64,000 bases of DNA from positions 29,335-93,334 of the forward strand of contig JAABUD010000122.1 in the NCBI GenBank assembly GCA_011389555.1. Direction: 5' to 3'. Position 1 is the first letter of the stretch; each line of letters starts with the position of its first letter. The position numbers and the translations under genes were made by a program. Shown piece after piece: positions 37,700-46,327 of this stretch. Source of the DNA: Desulfotignum sp. GTDB taxonomy: Bacteria; Desulfobacterota; Desulfobacteria; Desulfobacterales; Desulfobacteraceae. The notes beneath the pieces were generated by a model, which saw only the letters and a list, made by a program, of their open reading frames with translations, had not been told where the DNA came from and did no database searches.

Positions 37700-38410
37700 T
37701 CAGGCAAACAATCGGGCGATGAGGCTGGTGACTGCGGTTTCCACGGTTAAAATCCGGGGTCCCAGGCCGCAGGAGACAAATCCGATATCCGCCAGGGTCT
37801 GAACTTCCAGATCGATCCATCCCCCTTCCGGCCCTATCGCGAGCGTGACCGGCTGGTTCACACCTGCCGGGCAGATCGGATCGGTTCCGGGATGAGCCGT
37901 GATACATTGGGTGGCATCAGAAATTTCCAACAGTTCATTTTTGACAAACCGGCTGAAAAACCGTTTTTTATACACCCCGGGCATCACGGTATCTTTTGCC
38001 TGTTCCAGGCCCAGCCGGCAATATTCTTCCAGTTTGTCATCTGTCAGCAGCGGGCTTTGCCAGAAACTTTTTTCCACCCGCCAGGAATTCACCAGAAACA
38101 CCTGTTTGACCCCCAAAGTCGTGACGTTCTGGAGAATCCGCCGAAGCATCTTGGGCCGGGGCAGCGCCAGAACCAGGGTCAACGGAACACAGGGCGGCGG
38201 CGGTTGATCCAGATTCACTTGCAGCACCAGTCTTTCGGCATCCATGTCCTGAATCATGCCGGTTCCCATGCTGCCGTTGATTTTGCCGCAGGCAACGCAA
38301 TCTCCGGGTCCGGCTTTGAGTACCGTGCTGATATGGTCATACCGCCGGCCGGACAGGCACACGCGGTCGGGTGAAATAAAATCTGTTGGAAAGAGCAGAA
38401 CCAGGTTCAC
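37700..38410 (-). CDS. rsmE: 16S rRNA (uracil-1498-N3)-methyltransferase
   Basis: RsmE methylates U1498 of 16S rRNA with SAM. The 236-residue protein starts at GTG (complement of 38410). It has the N-terminal PUA-like part (YDHISTVLKAGPGDCVACG) and the SPOUT knot motifs LALPRPKMLRRILQNVTTLGVKQVFLV, AIGPEGGWIDLEV and LGPRILTVETAVTSLIA. It lies two bases after the large FAD/Fe-S oxidoreductase gene and is probably the last gene of that unit. The stated role rests on clear family motifs. Confidence 0.94.
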   Translation of the reverse strand: MNLVLLFPTDFISPDRVCLSGRRYDHISTVLKAGPGDCVACGKINGSMGTGMIQDMDAERLVLQVNLDQPPPPCVPLTLVLALPRPKMLRRILQNVTTLGVKQVFLVNSWRVEKSFWQSPLLTDDKLEEYCRLGLEQAKDTVMPGVYKKRFFSRFVKNELLEISDATQCITAHPGTDPICPAGVNQPVTLAIGPEGGWIDLEVQTLADIGFVSCGLGPRILTVETAVTSLIARLFA

Positions 38411-38412
38411 AA

Positions 38413-41400
38413 TCAGAAGGTCACTGTTTTCATAGAAGCGGCCACCGCTTGCAGGCGCCGGGTTTTCCAGTGACTCCCCCCCATTGCCACGGCCAGTTCT
38501 TCCGCCAGATGAACCGGTTCCACCCCGGTCAGCCGGCCCAGACCCTGAACGCAGGACGGACAGTTGGTGAGCATTTTCGCGGGGGCGTTCTGACTGATCC
38601 GGTCTTCCACAAGGGTAAAGGCTTCCTGCTTGCGAATCAGCATGTTATGGCTGATATCGGGCCGGGACAATGCCAGGGTGCCGGCCTGGGAGCAGCAGTG
38701 AGGCACCGGGGTCACGTCGAATCCATGGGTTTTGAGCAATTCAGTTCCCCGGTCTTTCAAAGAATCATGGCAGGGCCCATGGTAAAAACAGGCGCATGCC
38801 GGCGGTTCAGGCGGTGTCCATTGATTCAGGACATATTCACTGACATCGACCACCGGGCTGTCGAAAATCTGGGCCACATCCAGCCGGGTCAGGGATTCCA
38901 TGCAGGTGCCGCAGGACACCACCACCGCATCAAAGGCCAGGTCATTGAACATCTCCCGCAACTGGGTCAGGACAATGATGTTCTTTAACATCAGTTCATC
39001 ATATTTCCGGGTCCGGGCATTGACCCGAAACGGATATCCGCAGCACAGAAACGGCGGCGGCAGGACCACCCGGTGACTGCGGGCCAGCAGGATGTACAGG
39101 GCTGCTTTCGAGATCCGGGAATAGATGCGTTCGCTCCCGCATCCGGGAAAATAAAACACCGTGGAAACCGCGGGTTGTTCCGGTTCCAGAACCAATGCCT
39201 GATTTTTCAATGTCATGGGGACATGGGACCGAAGTGTGGTGAGATCCGGCCAGGGCATTTTCGATTGCAAAAGTTGAAGGGGCCGGACCCGGGAAAACGG
39301 GGAAATGCCGGCAACCGGAGACACCAGTGCGGCCCCGGTCCGCTGAAACACCGTGCCCGCGGTCAGCAGCCACGGCCGGGTCAGCTGGTTGGCCAACGGC
39401 CGCTTGTCCGCCAGATATCCCAGGGTGACCCGGGTGGACACCGGGGTGTGTTTGAACTGCATGGCTTTCAAAATTTCCCGGGACTCGATGGTGATGTTCC
39501 CGGAATCGATATTTACCGGGCATCGGGTCAGACACCGGTGGCAGATGGTGCAGTGATCCGCGATCTCTTCCAGATTCTGCAGGATCTGAAATCCGGTGGA
39601 CCGGGTCCGCTGGGTGATATACAGCAGGGCTTCGATCAAGGCCCCCAGCGCCAGGTTCCGGTTCCGGGGATGAAAAAACATGTTCTTGTCCGGAAAAAAC
39701 ACCGGGCACATGGACTTGCATTTACCGCACCGAACACAATGGGCAATGTTCATGGCCAGGTCGAACAAAGACCCGTGTTTCAGTATCCGGGCCTCCAGTT
39801 TCAGCAGGTTGAACGACGGGGTGAACACCTTGTCCAGAATATCGGGTTCAGACAGTTTTCCCGGATTCATGATCCGGTCCGGATCCACGTGATTGCGGTA
39901 TCCTTCAAACGCCTGAATCGATGACTGGGAAAGATATTTGAATTTGGTGATGCCGATGCCATGTTCGCCGGATACCACGCCCTGAAGATCCATGGCTTTT
40001 TCCATGACCCGGTCCGCCGTCATGGCGGCCCGGACCATCATTTCCCGGTCATTGGACAACACCGGGATGTTCACATGCACATTGCCGTCCCCGGCATGCA
40101 TGTGGGTAGCCACCACAATCAGGCGGGACCGGGCGGTGTCGTAGATGGATGCCAGGTTCTCCAGAATCTGGGAATAGCCCCGCAGGCTTTCGGTGACACG
40201 GGTATAAAAATTTCCGGCATGAATCCCCGCTTCCAGGGCATCCCGGGAGGCAATGGGCAGCTTCTTTTTCGTGGCCCAGGCCAGATCCTTGGCCTGCCCC
40301 ACTTTTTTTTGCAGCCACTGGGGGTCGGCCAGCGGCACGGCCCGGTCCAGGTATGCCACCAGATCGTCGATGATCCGGACCTGGTTGACCGCTTTTTCCT
40401 CCAGGTTGATCTGGTCCACGAATTTGACAAACTGTGCCAGAGAGGTCAGGGGCAGGACGATATCTTCATTGAGCTTGAACGCATTGGTGTGGGCGGCAAT
40501 GGCCCCCAGCCGCTTGCGGTCCTCCCAGAAACGCCGGGCCTCTTCGTCGGTTTCGGCAATGCTAAACCCGGTTTTTTCAAACGGTTCCAGAATGGATATC
40601 AGGGTATTCACCCCCGCATCCAGCCGGGCCATGTCACTGGATACCAGGTCCACCAGCAGCACGGCCTTGAGCCGGTTTCCCAGCGCGGTCTTGGTTTTAT
40701 AGTCAATGGCCTGGATATAGGCTTCGTCAAAATGCTCCAGCGCCATAACAGCCGGATCGTTGTGGTCAAATGTCGTTGAAATGGCGGTGATCACCTGGCC
40801 GGCTTCGGTCATGTCATTGCCGAAAAACTCGATGCAGCAGGTTTTTTTACAGGCGAATTCCGGGTACAGAATAAACCGGGCCGAGGTGATGATGCCGTCA
40901 CACCCCTCTTTCTGAATACCGGGAAGACCGTTGAGATATTTGTTGGTGACATCCTTGCCCAGACCTTTTTTTCGGATCTCTTCCCCGGTCAGTGCAATGG
41001 TCTGGATCTTCTGGCCGGTGTCATCGAAAACCTCGAAAATGACCGGATCGGTAAACAGAATTTTCCGGCCCGGATGGTCTTTCCGGGAAACGGTGTGCAC
41101 GTTGCCGTCCGGCATGACAATCCGATAGGACAGCACATTGTCCAGGGCCGTGCCGTACAGGACCGCGGTTTTGCCTCCGGCATTTTCAGCCAAATTTCCG
41201 CCGATGGTACAGGCCCAGGCAGATGTAGGGTCAGCGGCAAATATCAGCCCCTGTTCCCGGGCCGCGTCCTTGGCATCCTGGGTAATGACCCCGGCCTGCA
41301 CCTCGATGGCGAAACAGGTGCCGTCCCCCACCTCTGTCAATGGTGTGATATCCCCGATGCGGTTGAGTTTCTCCGTGTTGATCATGACACAGTCCCGGGT

Positions 41401-42012
41401 CAGCGGGGTGGCACCGCCGGTCAATCCGGTGCCCCCTCCCCGGGGAATGATCTGCAATCCCAGTTCATGGATTTTTTTTATCAGTTCCGGCACCTGGGAT
41501 TCGCGGTCGGGCCGCAGCACGGCTCTGGGAAGAAACCGCCGCCAGTCCGTGGCATCCGTGGCATGAGCCGTCAACGTAAACGGGTCGAAATAGATGTTGT
41601 CTTTACCGGCCACGGGGCTCAACGCCCGCACCATTTTCCTCTGAAACGCACCCTGGGTGGCAATTTGACGGTCCATGCCACCCAGGACCTGCCGACAGGC
41701 ATCCAGCACCTGGAACACTTCGGAATGCCGGGCCGCTGTTTCAATAATCGCCAGATCTTTTGCAAATTCGGAAAACAGCCGCTTCCGACGGGCCGGACGG
41801 GATACCAGTTCCTGAAAAAGAAACGGATTCCGCCCGATGATGAACAGATCCCCCATGAACCGGTACAGCAGCCGGGCCGACCGGCCGGTCCCTTTTTTGC
41901 GCTCCAGATCCTGTACGGTCTTTAGAATATCCGATCCAAAAAGATGAAGAATGATCTGATCATCAGAGGCAGAGGTGTAATTATAAAGAATTTTTCTTTC
42001 CGGATCACGCAT
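38413..42012 (-). CDS. Giant fused FAD-linked oxidase / Fe-S / CCG-domain oxidoreductase (DUF3683 type)
   Basis: This 1199-residue fusion has, in order, a DUF3683-like helical domain (1-125) and a PCMH-type FAD-binding domain (about 165-320, IPRGGGTGLTGGATPL, GGNLAENAGGKTAVLYG). An FAD-oxidase C domain follows (to about 720, THMHAGDGNVHVNIPV, GVVSGEHGIGITK). Then come two 4Fe-4S clusters (CVRCGKCKSMCP near 760 and CTICHRCLTRCP near 820) and two CCG domains (FPGCGSERIYS, CCGYPF, SCGTC, HGPCHDS, CCSQAG). It joins the roles of GlcD and GlcF, so it oxidises a 2-hydroxy acid and passes electrons to an unknown acceptor. It directly follows serA (two-base gap). D-2-hydroxyglutarate, a SerA side product, is a reasonable substrate guess, as is lactate or glycolate. 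Confidence 0.88.
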   Translation of the reverse strand: MRDPERKILYNYTSASDDQIILHLFGSDILKTVQDLERKKGTGRSARLLYRFMGDLFIIGRNPFLFQELVSRPARRKRLFSEFAKDLAIIETAARHSEVFQVLDACRQVLGGMDRQIATQGAFQRKMVRALSPVAGKDNIYFDPFTLTAHATDATDWRRFLPRAVLRPDRESQVPELIKKIHELGLQIIPRGGGTGLTGGATPLTRDCVMINTEKLNRIGDITPLTEVGDGTCFAIEVQAGVITQDAKDAAREQGLIFAADPTSAWACTIGGNLAENAGGKTAVLYGTALDNVLSYRIVMPDGNVHTVSRKDHPGRKILFTDPVIFEVFDDTGQKIQTIALTGEEIRKKGLGKDVTNKYLNGLPGIQKEGCDGIITSARFILYPEFACKKTCCIEFFGNDMTEAGQVITAISTTFDHNDPAVMALEHFDEAYIQAIDYKTKTALGNRLKAVLLVDLVSSDMARLDAGVNTLISILEPFEKTGFSIAETDEEARRFWEDRKRLGAIAAHTNAFKLNEDIVLPLTSLAQFVKFVDQINLEEKAVNQVRIIDDLVAYLDRAVPLADPQWLQKKVGQAKDLAWATKKKLPIASRDALEAGIHAGNFYTRVTESLRGYSQILENLASIYDTARSRLIVVATHMHAGDGNVHVNIPVLSNDREMMVRAAMTADRVMEKAMDLQGVVSGEHGIGITKFKYLSQSSIQAFEGYRNHVDPDRIMNPGKLSEPDILDKVFTPSFNLLKLEARILKHGSLFDLAMNIAHCVRCGKCKSMCPVFFPDKNMFFHPRNRNLALGALIEALLYITQRTRSTGFQILQNLEEIADHCTICHRCLTRCPVNIDSGNITIESREILKAMQFKHTPVSTRVTLGYLADKRPLANQLTRPWLLTAGTVFQRTGAALVSPVAGISPFSRVRPLQLLQSKMPWPDLTTLRSHVPMTLKNQALVLEPEQPAVSTVFYFPGCGSERIYSRISKAALYILLARSHRVVLPPPFLCCGYPFRVNARTRKYDELMLKNIIVLTQLREMFNDLAFDAVVVSCGTCMESLTRLDVAQIFDSPVVDVSEYVLNQWTPPEPPACACFYHGPCHDSLKDRGTELLKTHGFDVTPVPHCCSQAGTLALSRPDISHNMLIRKQEAFTLVEDRISQNAPAKMLTNCPSCVQGLGRLTGVEPVHLAEELAVAMGGSHWKTRRLQAVAASMKTVTF

Positions 42013-42014
42013 GT

Positions 42015-43598
42015 CTAAAGTTCAAAGGTTCTCATGCTCACCACCAGGGGCAGTGCTTCAATTTCTTCAATCACCTCCGCCGGAACCGGGATATCGGTCT
42101 TCAGAAAAATGATGTTGCGCTGGCCATCCTCTTCCCGGCCCACCATCATGCGGGAGATGTTGATATCGTGTTTGCCCAGGGTATTGCCGATGGACCCGAT
42201 GGAACCGGGCTTGTCCACATTGTGGATCAGCCCCAGGTGACCTTCGGGAATCACTTCCAGCCGGAATTTGTTGATGCGCACGATGCGGGCCGCATCTTTA
42301 CCGAAAATGGTGCCGGTCACCACATCGGTACCGGTATCGGTCACCACGGTCATCCGGATCAGGTTGATGAAATTGCCCGAATCCTGGGCCGTGGATTCGG
42401 AAATTTTGATCCCTTTTTCATTGGCCATGGAGATGGCGTTCACGGAATTGACTTCATAGGGGATGAATTCATTGAGCAGTCCCTTGATGGCCGCGATGGT
42501 GACCGGTTTGATATCCAGGTCCGGAAACTTGCCGATATACTCGATCTGCACCTCCCGAATACCGCCTGAAATGAGCTGGGCCTGTGTCTTGCCCATTTTT
42601 TCCGCCAGATACAGAAACGGTTTGAGCTGGCGCAGCACCTCGCCGGTGACCGAGGGCACGTTCACGGCATTGATCACCGTGTCCAGCAGCAGATAAGCGA
42701 TGATCTGGTTGGCGGCGGCCACCGCCACATGGGTCTGGGCCTCTTTGGTGGAGGCCCCCAGGTGCGGGGTGGCCACCACCGGGTCCAGCCCCAGCAAAGG
42801 CAGATCTTCAGGAGGTTCCGTGGAAAACACGTCCAGGGCTGCGCCCGCCACTTTTCCGGACACAATGGCATCATACAGGGCCGATTCATTGATGATCCCG
42901 CCCCGGGCACAGTTGATCACATACACCCCGTCCTTCATTTTTTCAAACGCCTCGGTATCCAGCAGGTCGATGGTGGCCTCCATCTTTGGGACATGCAAAG
43001 TGATATAGTCGGCCTGGCTGTAAAGGCTGTCCAGGTCCACATACTCGAATCCCTGTTTTTCGATATGTTCTCTGGAAATATTGGGATCAAACACAATGAC
43101 CTGCATTCTCAACCCCTTGGCCAGGGTGGCCACAATGGAACCGATATTGCCGAACCCGATGACACCTAAGGTCTTGTTGAAGATTTCCCGGCCCTGGAGC
43201 CGCTTTTTCTCCCATTTCCCCGCCTTCATGGAGGCTGTGGCCCGGGGGATGTTCCGGGTCAGAGACATCATCATGGCAATGGCATGCTCGGCCGTGGTCA
43301 CGGTGTTGCCGCCCGGCGTGTTCATGACTGCCACGCCTTTGCGGGTGGCCTCGTCGATGTCCACATTGTCCAGGCCGATGCCGGCCCGGGCAACCACCTT
43401 GAGGTTGACCGCCGCATCCAGAAGCGCCTTGTCCACCTTTGTGGCGCTCCGGATGGCCAAAGCGTCATAAGACCCGATGATACCTCTGAGTTCCTCAGGG
43501 GACAACCCGGTGTTCACGTCCACATCGATCCCTTCCTGGTTTCTGAAAATATCGATACCCGCCTCATCCATTTTATCGCTGACCAGCACTTTCATCAT
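42015..43598 (-). CDS. serA: D-3-phosphoglycerate dehydrogenase
   Basis: SerA oxidises 3-phosphoglycerate, the first step of serine synthesis. The 527-residue form has the substrate/NAD domains (GVIGFGNIGSIVATLAKGLRMQVIVFDP; NCARGGIINESALYDAI; catalytic His in ATPHLGASTKEAQTHVA). An intervening ASB domain follows, then a C-terminal ACT domain (GLIHNVDKPGSIGSIGNTLGKHDINISRMMVG) for serine feedback. AAGGAGAACAA precedes ATGATG. The first ATG overlaps the serC stop in ATGA, which indicates coupling. It sits between serC and the fused oxidoreductase. Confidence 0.97.
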   Translation of the reverse strand: MMKVLVSDKMDEAGIDIFRNQEGIDVDVNTGLSPEELRGIIGSYDALAIRSATKVDKALLDAAVNLKVVARAGIGLDNVDIDEATRKGVAVMNTPGGNTVTTAEHAIAMMMSLTRNIPRATASMKAGKWEKKRLQGREIFNKTLGVIGFGNIGSIVATLAKGLRMQVIVFDPNISREHIEKQGFEYVDLDSLYSQADYITLHVPKMEATIDLLDTEAFEKMKDGVYVINCARGGIINESALYDAIVSGKVAGAALDVFSTEPPEDLPLLGLDPVVATPHLGASTKEAQTHVAVAAANQIIAYLLLDTVINAVNVPSVTGEVLRQLKPFLYLAEKMGKTQAQLISGGIREVQIEYIGKFPDLDIKPVTIAAIKGLLNEFIPYEVNSVNAISMANEKGIKISESTAQDSGNFINLIRMTVVTDTGTDVVTGTIFGKDAARIVRINKFRLEVIPEGHLGLIHNVDKPGSIGSIGNTLGKHDINISRMMVGREEDGQRNIIFLKTDIPVPAEVIEEIEALPLVVSMRTFEL

Positions 43599-44683
43599 TT
43601 GTTCTCCTTTTCAAAAGAGATCATGAAATCTCTGAGGGCCTGGATCCCCTCCCGGGTGGCGGCGTTGTAGATGGAAGCCCGGCATCCGCCCACAGACCGG
43701 TGACCCTTGAGCCCGCCCAGGTTCTGTTTCAGGGCATCGGCCACAAACTGTTTTTCCAGATCCTCGGAGGGCAGCCGGAACGTCACGTTCATCAGGGACC
43801 GGGAGTCTTTGTGGGCCGTGCCCCGGTAAAAGCCGGAGCCATCGATCACATCGTACAGCATGGCTGCTTTTTCCTCATTGGATGCCGCCATGACGTCCAG
43901 GGAGCCGAACTGCTCCTGGATCCATTTGAACACCAGACCGATGGTATAGATCCCGAAACAGGGGGGGGTGTTGTACATGGAGTTTTTGGCCGCATAGGTG
44001 CTGTATGTGAGCATGGAGGGCAGATCCGTGTTGGCGGATTCCAGAAAATCCTTTTTAATGATCACCAGGCAGGTGCCGGACGGGCCCAGATTTTTCTGGG
44101 CACCGGCGTAAATCAGGCCGAATTTTTCCATGGGCAAAGGCCGGGAAAAAATATCGGAAGACATGTCCGCCACCAGGGGGATGCCGCCGGTTTCGGGAAA
44201 CTGTGCAAACTGGGTGCCTTTGATGGTGTTGTTGGAGGTAAGATGCACATACCGGGCGTCCGGGGTGCAGGGTATGGTTTCAGGAATACAGGAAAAATTC
44301 TCGTCTTCGGAAGAGGCGGTCACCTGGATGGTTTTTCCCAGAATCTGTGCTTCCTTGATGGCTTTGGTGGACCAGGTGCCGGTGTTGACGTAATCCGCGG
44401 TCTGGCCCTGTCCCAGAAAATTCATGGGAATCATGGCAAACTGCAGGGAGGCCCCGCCCTGAATGAACAGCACATGCCAGGTATCATCCAGGTTCAACAG
44501 CTGCCTGGCCCGGTCGATGACGTCATTGATCACTTCGTCAAACTGGGCGGACCGGTGGCTGATCTCGGTGATGGACATGCCGGAGTGATTGAAATTCAGA
44601 AACGAGGTCTGGATCTTTTCTAAGACCGGCAGGGGCAATGCTGCCGGTCCGGCGTTAAAGTTGTGAATACGCTGTGCTGTCAT
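43595..44683 (-). CDS. serC: Phosphoserine aminotransferase
   Basis: SerC is a PLP enzyme that converts 3-phosphohydroxypyruvate to phosphoserine, the second step of serine synthesis. The 362-residue length is typical. Visible motifs are HNFNAGPAALPLPVLEK at the start, the PLP-lysine region GLIYAGAQKNLGPSG, and GLKGHRSVGGCRASIYNA at the end. AAAGGAGTG precedes the start. The gene lies 36 bases after prfC and overlaps serA by four bases. No serB-type phosphatase is found here. Confidence 0.97.
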   Translation of the reverse strand: MTAQRIHNFNAGPAALPLPVLEKIQTSFLNFNHSGMSITEISHRSAQFDEVINDVIDRARQLLNLDDTWHVLFIQGGASLQFAMIPMNFLGQGQTADYVNTGTWSTKAIKEAQILGKTIQVTASSEDENFSCIPETIPCTPDARYVHLTSNNTIKGTQFAQFPETGGIPLVADMSSDIFSRPLPMEKFGLIYAGAQKNLGPSGTCLVIIKKDFLESANTDLPSMLTYSTYAAKNSMYNTPPCFGIYTIGLVFKWIQEQFGSLDVMAASNEEKAAMLYDVIDGSGFYRGTAHKDSRSLMNVTFRLPSEDLEKQFVADALKQNLGGLKGHRSVGGCRASIYNAATREGIQALRDFMISFEKENK

Positions 44684-44719: not shown

Positions 44720-46327
44720 TCATATGTTGTGCTCGCGTGTCTTGTGGAACTGGATATCGGGCCATTCTTCCATGACAAATCCCAGCTGATATTCGCTGGT
44801 GGTCATGAAGGTCAGGCACCCTTCCGCATCCAGGGCCAGACTGGATTCATTCTTCTGTCTGAACCGCTTCAGAATGCTGTCATCTTCACAGGTGACCCAC
44901 CTTGCCACGGACAGGTCAATGGGCTCATACCCGGCATGGACATTGTATTCCGCCTTGAGCCGTGCCATGGTCACATCAAACTGCAACACCCCCACAGCCC
45001 CGATCACGTGCATGTTTCCCAGCAGCGGCCGGAACACCTGGATGGTACCCTCTTCCGCCAGCTGGGTCAATCCCTTGTTCAGGGACTTGGTCTTGAGGGG
45101 ATCCTTGAGCAGGACCCGCCGGAAATGCTCGGGCGCAAAACTGGGGATTCCTAAAAATTTCAGCGGCTCCTTGGTGGTAAAGGTGTCCCCGATTTTGATG
45201 GTGCCGTGGTTGTGGATCCCGATGATGTCCCCGGGATAGGCCTCTTCCACATGGCTGCGTTCCCGGGCCATGAAAATGGTGGCATTGGACAGCCGGATCT
45301 CCTTGCCGAGGCGGTGATGCTTGACCTTCATACCTTTGATGAACTTGCCGGAACAGACGCGGAAAAACGCGATCCGGTCCCGATGCTCCGGGTCCATGTT
45401 GGCCTGGATTTTGAACGCAAATCCGGAGAAATCAGGCTCAAAGGGACTGATATCCCGGGTGGACGAGGGTCTCACCCCGGGAGGCGGCGCAATCTGGACA
45501 AACGCATCCAGCATCTCCCTGACCCCGAAATTGTTGATGGCAGACCCGAAAAACACCGGGGTCTGGGTGCCGGTCAGGTACAGCGCCATATTGAAAGGGT
45601 CGGCCGCCCCTTTGATCAATTCCACATCCTCTCTGAGCTGATCGGCAGCTGATTCGGAAATCAGTCCGTCCAGCCGGGGGTCGGACAGATCCTGAATCAC
45701 AATCCCGTCATCATCTCTGGGCGTGTATCCGGATGTGAACAGTCCCAGTTCTTTTTTGTCAAAATTATACACCCCCTTGAACCGCTTGCCCATGCCGATG
45801 GGCCAGGTCAGGGGCACGCATTCGATCTGGAGCTTGTCTTCGATATCCTCGAAGATATCCAGCGGCTCCAGCCCTTCTCTGTCCAGTTTGTTGATAAACG
45901 TGAGGATGGGGGTGTTGCGCATGCGGCACACCTCCATGAGTTTTTCGGTCTGGGGCTCCACGCCTTTGGCATTGTCGATGATCATGACCGCGCAGTCCAC
46001 AGCCGTGAGCACCCGGTAGGTGTCTTCTGAAAAATCCTTATGCCCCGGCGTGTCCAGCAGGTTGATCTCATACCCTTTGTATTCAAACTTCATGACAGAA
46101 GAAGACACGGAAATGCCGCGTTCCTGTTCAATGGAAAGAAAATCGGACAGGGCGGCCCGATCTGTTTTTTTGGATTTCACCGCACCGGCCTGAGTGATGG
46201 CCCCGCCGAACAGCAGCAGTTTTTCGGTCAAAGTGGTTTTCCCGGCATCCGGGTGGGAGATGATGGCAAAGGTCCGGCGTTTCTTTATTTCCCGAACCCT
46301 TGCCCTGTCTATGGTGTCTGATTCCAT
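44720..46327 (-). CDS. prfC: Peptide chain release factor 3
   Basis: RF3 is a GTPase that recycles RF1/RF2 after termination. The 535-residue protein has G1 [17 protein letters not shown]3 [17 protein letters not shown]4 [10 protein letters not shown] and the RF3-specific regions [31 protein letters not shown]. The ATG is the complement of 46327. It heads the minus-strand serC-serA-oxidoreductase-rsmE run. About 227 bases without a gene lie upstream and include the terminator of the polysaccharide locus. Confidence 0.96.

Follow-up and report, generated by a model that had tools for sequence, protein, structure and literature searches.

The window analysed here, the whole stretch of 64,000 nucleotides of Desulfotignum sp. 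DNA (contig JAABUD010000122.1), carries a gene for a large flavoprotein directly behind two genes of serine synthesis, serC and serA. This protein is a fusion of 1199 amino acids (aa) with a DUF3683 domain, binding sites for flavin adenine dinucleotide (FAD) and iron–sulfur (Fe-S) clusters. It is best read, with a probability of roughly 0.6, as a D-3-phosphoglycerate dehydrogenase that works independently of nicotinamide adenine dinucleotide (NAD) and is co-encoded here with the NAD-dependent enzyme SerA. Gene order, domains, an invariant pocket, the pattern of co-occurrence with SerA and the presence of SerB in the genome were observed in this analysis. From these, together with publications on the serine phenotype of homologs and on serine synthesis without serA in Achromobacter, we infer the substrate, the acceptor and the transfer of the homologs' function to the window protein. 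The genes concerned are as follows.

38413..42012, minus strand: DUF3683 FAD/Fe-S fusion, 1199 aa, proposed FAD/Fe-S D-3-phosphoglycerate:acceptor oxidoreductase (Pfam domains, invariant pocket, AlphaFold model)
42015..43598, minus strand: serA, Type I D-3-phosphoglycerate dehydrogenase, 527 aa, with ASB and ACT domains (TIGR01327, 632 bits, cut-off 454; PGDH_inter and ACT)
43595..44683, minus strand: serC, phosphoserine aminotransferase, 362 aa (TIGR01364, 477 bits, cut-off 443.6)
37700..38410, minus strand: rsmE, 16S ribosomal RNA m3U1498 methyltransferase, last gene of the block (NF008700, 298 bits, cut-off 252)
44720..46327, minus strand: prfC-like peptide-chain release factor 3 gene, upstream neighbour of the block (sequence similarity and context; synteny prfC-serC-serA-(DUF3683)-rsmE)

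On the minus strand, prfC is followed by a single compact block of serC, serA, the fusion gene and rsmE. The serC and serA genes overlap by 4 base pairs (bp), and 2 bp separate the serA stop from the fusion start, as they do the fusion stop from rsmE. The geometry described in the earlier note, with the fusion beginning 2 bp past a serA that overlaps serC, was exact when the coordinates were re-read. rsmE is probably functionally unrelated to the rest of the block. The SerA protein is of Type I and complete in length; its closest solved relative, over the full length, is the Mycobacterium tuberculosis phosphoglycerate dehydrogenase (PGDH; 1YGY). SerC is canonical, and SerB is encoded elsewhere in the genome.

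The first step of serine synthesis is thermodynamically uphill with NAD, and Pseudomonas copes with this by cycling D-2-hydroxyglutarate (D2HG). In the proposed mechanism, the GlcD-like half of the fusion would oxidise 3-phosphoglycerate to 3-phosphohydroxypyruvate at its metal/FAD site, and two [4Fe-4S] clusters and two GlpC/HdrB-type CCG units would relay the electrons to a carrier of higher potential, such as quinone, electron-transferring flavoprotein (ETF) or another protein. Such an acceptor would pull the unfavourable step forward, which is the same pull that D2HG cycling provides, and SerC and SerB would finish the pathway. The fusion would stand in for SerA in many Burkholderiales and would offer the window's organism a second route beside it. 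The window's family may keep both enzymes for use under different conditions, for regulation via SerA's ACT domain or as an electron shuttle. The idea of a phosphoglycerate/phosphohydroxypyruvate shuttle, in which SerA and the fusion, much like the glycerol-3-phosphate shuttle, would transfer electrons of NADH to quinone, is pure speculation. On a wider scale, the odds are about even that DUF3683 proteins form a widespread, biochemically undescribed class of D-3-phosphoglycerate:acceptor oxidoreductases that feeds the first serine step into the respiratory chain.

The domain composition confirms the earlier identification of the protein as a GlcD/GlcF-like flavo-Fe-S enzyme of the DUF3683 type. 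Pfam recognises DUF3683 (PF12447, 120 bits against a cut-off of 27), FAD_binding_4, FAD-oxidase_C, Fer4_8 and CCG. Two [4Fe-4S] motifs (C759/762/765/769 and C821/824/827/831) are invariant among homologs, as are the cysteines of the first CCG unit (C958, C990-991, C1034, C1037). A second CCG unit was recognised by its invariant cysteines (C1081, C1106-1107, C1151, C1154). DUF3400, a C-terminal domain reported for the Burkholderia and Herbaspirillum members, found no match in the window fusion at E<=0.001, and this region may have diverged. No stretch along the sequence is hydrophobic enough for a membrane helix. In the full-length AlphaFold model (predicted local distance difference test score 84, predicted template modelling score 0.81) the DUF3683 domain is all-helical. 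A fold search matched the GlcD part to D-lactate and D2HG dehydrogenases, with D-lactate dehydrogenases closest overall, a model-based match that is uninformative on the substrate.

The linkage to serA was followed in 86 genomes of the window's family, in which the fusion was called at E<=1e-50 and 40 loci were read. The fusion is present in 52 of the 86. Directly upstream of DUF3683 lies serA in 24 of the 40 loci (24/36 of those that can be resolved) and prfC, without serC-serA, in 12, while 4 are cut by contig ends; rsmE lies directly downstream in 39 of 40. Family genomes with the prfC-DUF3683-rsmE arrangement keep serC-serA as a pair elsewhere (seven loci). Because the DUF3683-free relatives that were read also retain serC-serA, mostly with prfC before and rsmE after, the fusion represents a clean insertion or loss. 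In the tree, the family's earliest branches are among those with serA-linked loci, and serC-serA has been relocated at least two times. The adjacency is more than chance, since 24 further loci of the family likewise have serA immediately before DUF3683.

Beyond the family the picture differs. DUF3683 is rare in Desulfobacterota (13 of 297 sampled phylum genomes), and serA is not a neighbour in any of the 12 DUF3683 loci read from other families of the phylum, which rules out a linkage conserved across the phylum. The earlier note had proposed looking for serA and DUF3683 as neighbours in many Desulfobacterota and had counted a lack of conservation against its own idea: the neighbourhood holds within the window's family and fails in the other families of the phylum. 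The prfC-DUF3683 adjacency recurs outside the family (L016, L120, L126). Among 80 named loci, which reach into other phyla, serA is adjacent only in L115, itself from the window's family, and any other neighbour is shared by about ten loci at most. The adjacency is thus genuine but family-specific and, taken alone, weak evidence for a coupled function.

Several other arrangements were seen in these genomes. In a spirochaete metagenome-assembled genome, DUF3683 has a short ACT-type serA and a serC one gene away, oriented the opposite way (L142:8959-15764), the sole near-linkage seen outside Desulfobacterota. A 2-hydroxyacid dehydrogenase gene of the glycerate/hydroxypyruvate type divergently adjoins DUF3683 in two Gammaproteobacteria (L159:7861-8847 and L180:7949-8914, both minus strand). 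Within the window's family, a second SerA-like paralog of 319 aa is common (e.g. G337:C83:31622-32563); it is 56-61% identical to SerA and, judged by length, has no ASB or ACT domains. Two genomes of one genus of the family (g208; G371 and G372, the latter read as locus L085) keep DUF3683 and have only a SerA-like protein of ~320 aa and no full-length SerA, which at most hints at a SerA loss within the family, both assemblies being incomplete.

Published genetics connect the homologs to serine. Transposon mutants of the DUF3683 gene BPHYT_RS03150 in Burkholderia phytofirmans grew poorly in minimal media and were partly rescued by L-serine, and a standard serA was not found in that strain; Price et al. 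(2018) proposed that this 'FAD-linked oxidase' supplies the missing phosphoglycerate dehydrogenase activity (PMC5764234). A later paper calls the gene SerA (PMC11535334). The requirement for serine synthesis has been published for B. phytofirmans only (PMC5764234). Together with the gene context in the window's family, these genetics support the link between the fusion and serine synthesis that the earlier note had drawn. BPHYT_RS03150 and HSERO_RS19500 share with the window protein the domain order DUF3683, FAD_binding_4, FAD-oxidase_C, 4Fe-4S dicluster and CCG (PMC5764234), and Burkholderiales homologs are about 37-38% identical to it. A difference is that their strains have no standard serA, while in the window serA belongs to the operon of the fusion. 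In Achromobacter denitrificans, SerA produces D2HG in vitro, deletion of d2hgdh abolishes growth on D2HG, and both the serA deletion mutant and the serA d2hgdh double mutant grow without serine, from which the authors infer an 'unidentified pathway' (PMC8651671). The congener A. anxifer carries DUF3683 (L193). If A. denitrificans carries it as well, DUF3683 would be the obvious candidate for this serine pathway and would not be a D2HG dehydrogenase in that organism. A 2024 complementation screen was set aside as proof of function; in the part of it consulted, the Rhodoferax DUF3683 gene is listed as an expected hit, not as a recovered one.

Supporting this model, DUF3683 often occurs in genomes that lack SerA. 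In the 160 Burkholderiales genomes sampled, DUF3683 is present in 120, always as one gene, and ACT-type SerA in 80; both are found in 51, DUF3683 only in 69, SerA only in 29 and neither in 11 (Fisher p=0.0017, relatedness ignored). The 69 DUF3683-only genomes were searched at E<=1e-10 for any protein of the D-2-hydroxyacid dehydrogenase family, which covers short SerA without ACT, and at this threshold 17 of them yielded none. Of these 17, 16 have SerC and 13 have SerB over its cut-off. SerB also exceeds its cut-off in 43 of the 47 DUF3683-only genomes tested, versus 3 of the 11 with neither gene (p=3e-5, relatedness ignored). Since most of the DUF3683-only genomes tested keep SerC and SerB, the phosphorylated pathway is retained without SerA where DUF3683 is present. 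In G186, a genome of the window's order, DUF3683 lies beside prfC, SerC is present, and no SerA-type protein was found. Occurrence in place of SerA, with SerC and SerB kept, is therefore seen in Burkholderiales, and the window's own genome has SerA.

The predicted substrate pocket was compared across 125 DUF3683 proteins from SerA-positive and SerA-negative lineages, with human D2HG dehydrogenase (D2HGDH) as reference (PMC7801405). Eleven residues (R499, K513, N515, E516, D517, H637, H639, H646, N648, E683, H684) are identical in 125/125, and this invariance across both kinds of lineage suggests one substrate. The signature K-x-N-E-D ... GDGN-x-H-x-N was absent from the lactate/glycolate enzymes of the PDB that were compared. 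It is shared by a lone GlcD protein in the window's genome and by its counterpart in a second, DUF3683-free genus.

L239:6501-7883, plus strand: lone GlcD, window's genome (contig C194), after dnaA and two genes from pdxA
L240:6245-7624, plus strand: counterpart in the related genus, after dnaA and two genes from pdxA

This pdxA-linked GlcD is a plausible and good candidate for the 4-phosphoerythronate dehydrogenase missing from vitamin B6 synthesis in these sulfate reducers. The role fits because GlcD-type enzymes are proposed to replace PdxB on 4-phosphoerythronate: FAD-linked enzymes of this type do so in Sinorhizobium, and DVU0826/0827 has been proposed for Desulfovibrio (PMC9997740). Like the fusion, PdxR and DVU0826/0827 are GlcD-type flavoenzymes that replace, or are proposed to replace, an NAD enzyme working on a phosphorylated D-2-hydroxyacid, whereas DVU0826/0827 has separate GlcD and GlcF subunits, no DUF3683 and a vitamin B6 role. 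To judge from sequence, the signature may mark enzymes for phosphorylated D-2-hydroxyacids.

Several observations weigh against a phosphoglycerate dehydrogenase role. An E. coli serA mutant was complemented by neither of two DUF3683 homologs (PMC5764234), and no assay of any DUF3683 protein, including 3-phosphoglycerate oxidation in vitro, was found in the literature searched. In Achromobacter, DUF3683 is known from A. anxifer, a congener of the A. denitrificans mutant strain. The Burkholderiales counts treat genomes as independent of kinship, and some SerA-free Desulfobacterota holders (G186, G014) have no clear SerB. SerA also occurs in 51 of the 120 DUF3683-positive Burkholderiales and in DUF3683-positive genomes of the window's family with good assemblies, so that the working PGDH of these genomes is not necessarily DUF3683. 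The activity itself was proposed already in 2018 by Price et al.; new, as far as the literature searched goes, are the operon with serA, the census of SerA-free genomes and the signature shared with the pdxA-linked GlcD.

The earlier note took the fusion for a D2HG dehydrogenase that re-oxidises D2HG made by SerA from 2-oxoglutarate, as in Pseudomonas stutzeri or with YdiJ of E. coli. This function is unlikely, and the note's reading is probably wrong. Its appeal lies in classical d2hgdh genes often adjoining serA (PMC8651671), as the fusion does 2 bp after serA in the window's family, and in YdiJ (E. coli, Pantoea) being likewise a single-chain fusion of GlcD and GlpC/CCG-type parts, with FAD, 4Fe-4S and equivalents of the metal ligands and catalytic His (PMC9504171). 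The pocket also offers partial agreement: the metal ligands His434, His441 and Glu475 of human D2HGDH correspond to H639, H646 and E683, Arg386, for the C1-carboxylate, to R499, and the base His476 to H684. These matches are not diagnostic, however, because they are common to the whole GlcD-type family. Of the residues forming the human C5-carboxylate pocket (Thr390, Lys401, Tyr432, Asn443; PMC7801405), only Asn443 is kept, the window fusion having G503, N515, H637 and N648 and DUF3683 homologs in general Gly/Ala/Ser, Asn and His at the first three. Classical D2HGDH (P. stutzeri, P. aeruginosa PA0317, human 6LPN; ETF-linked) shares the VAO/PCMH flavoprotein fold of the GlcD part but lacks the Fe-S/CCG half. 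YdiJ has no DUF3683 domain, its pocket is unlike both DUF3683 and human D2HGDH (Arg for N648, Ala for N515, Pro for K513), and an identity with YdiJ was rejected at 89 bits against the NF049975 cut-off of 1350.

The distribution points the same way, with 69 of the 160 Burkholderiales holding DUF3683 without ACT-type SerA and 17 of these 69 without any detected 2-hydroxyacid dehydrogenase. Additionally, growth of A. denitrificans on D2HG is explained by its classical D2HGDH alone (PMC8651671). The window's SerA resembles the M. tuberculosis enzyme, and Type I PGDHs of that kind are reported not to use 2-oxoglutarate (PMC6300728). Relatives without DUF3683 retain serC-serA-rsmE. Taken together, the SerA-free holders, the YdiJ score, the three missing C5-carboxylate residues and the Achromobacter genetics leave D2HG recycling without support as the job of the fusion. 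The anaerobic acceptor that the note envisaged is not indicated either, the DUF3683 family being common in Burkholderiales.

It is improbable that the fusion is a D-lactate/glycolate-type dehydrogenase or other 2-hydroxyacid oxidase without any serine role, its position next to serA being a by-product of the prfC-rsmE locus. The 12 loci with DUF3683 between prfC and rsmE and no serC-serA, the recurrence of prfC beside DUF3683 outside the family and the overall fold would agree with such an enzyme. The serine phenotype of the homologs (PMC5764234) and the retention of SerC/SerB in SerA-less holders would not, and N648 stands where lactate/glycolate enzymes have a hydrophobic residue. Glycolate oxidase GlcD was rejected as an identity at 212.7 bits against the TIGR00387 cut-off of 567.9. 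GlpABC, GlcDEF and LctD-EtfAB follow the same flavin and Fe-S/CCG electron-transfer logic but differ in substrates and subunit make-up, and the fusion stays below the curated cut-offs. Least probable is a 4-phospho-D-erythronate dehydrogenase substituting for PdxB in vitamin B6 synthesis and linked here through SerC, which serves both pathways: the known GlcD-type replacements (PMC9997740) and the shared pocket signature favour it, but both the window's genome and a DUF3683-free relative already have a separate GlcD near pdxA that fits this role, serine rescues the Burkholderia mutants (PMC5764234), and no pdx gene was seen beside DUF3683 in the neighbourhoods read.

If the fusion is a respiratory phosphoglycerate dehydrogenase, it would be a second, simpler answer to the uphill first step of serine synthesis. 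It would account for serine prototrophs that are free of SerA, three quarters of the sampled Burkholderiales carrying DUF3683, as well as for the serine prototrophy of the Achromobacter serA mutant and for wrong predictions of auxotrophy. In addition, a large protein family would gain a function that can be tested, and a likely misreading of its members as D2HG or lactate dehydrogenases would be put right. Many bacteria appear to depend on the DUF3683 enzyme in place of SerA.

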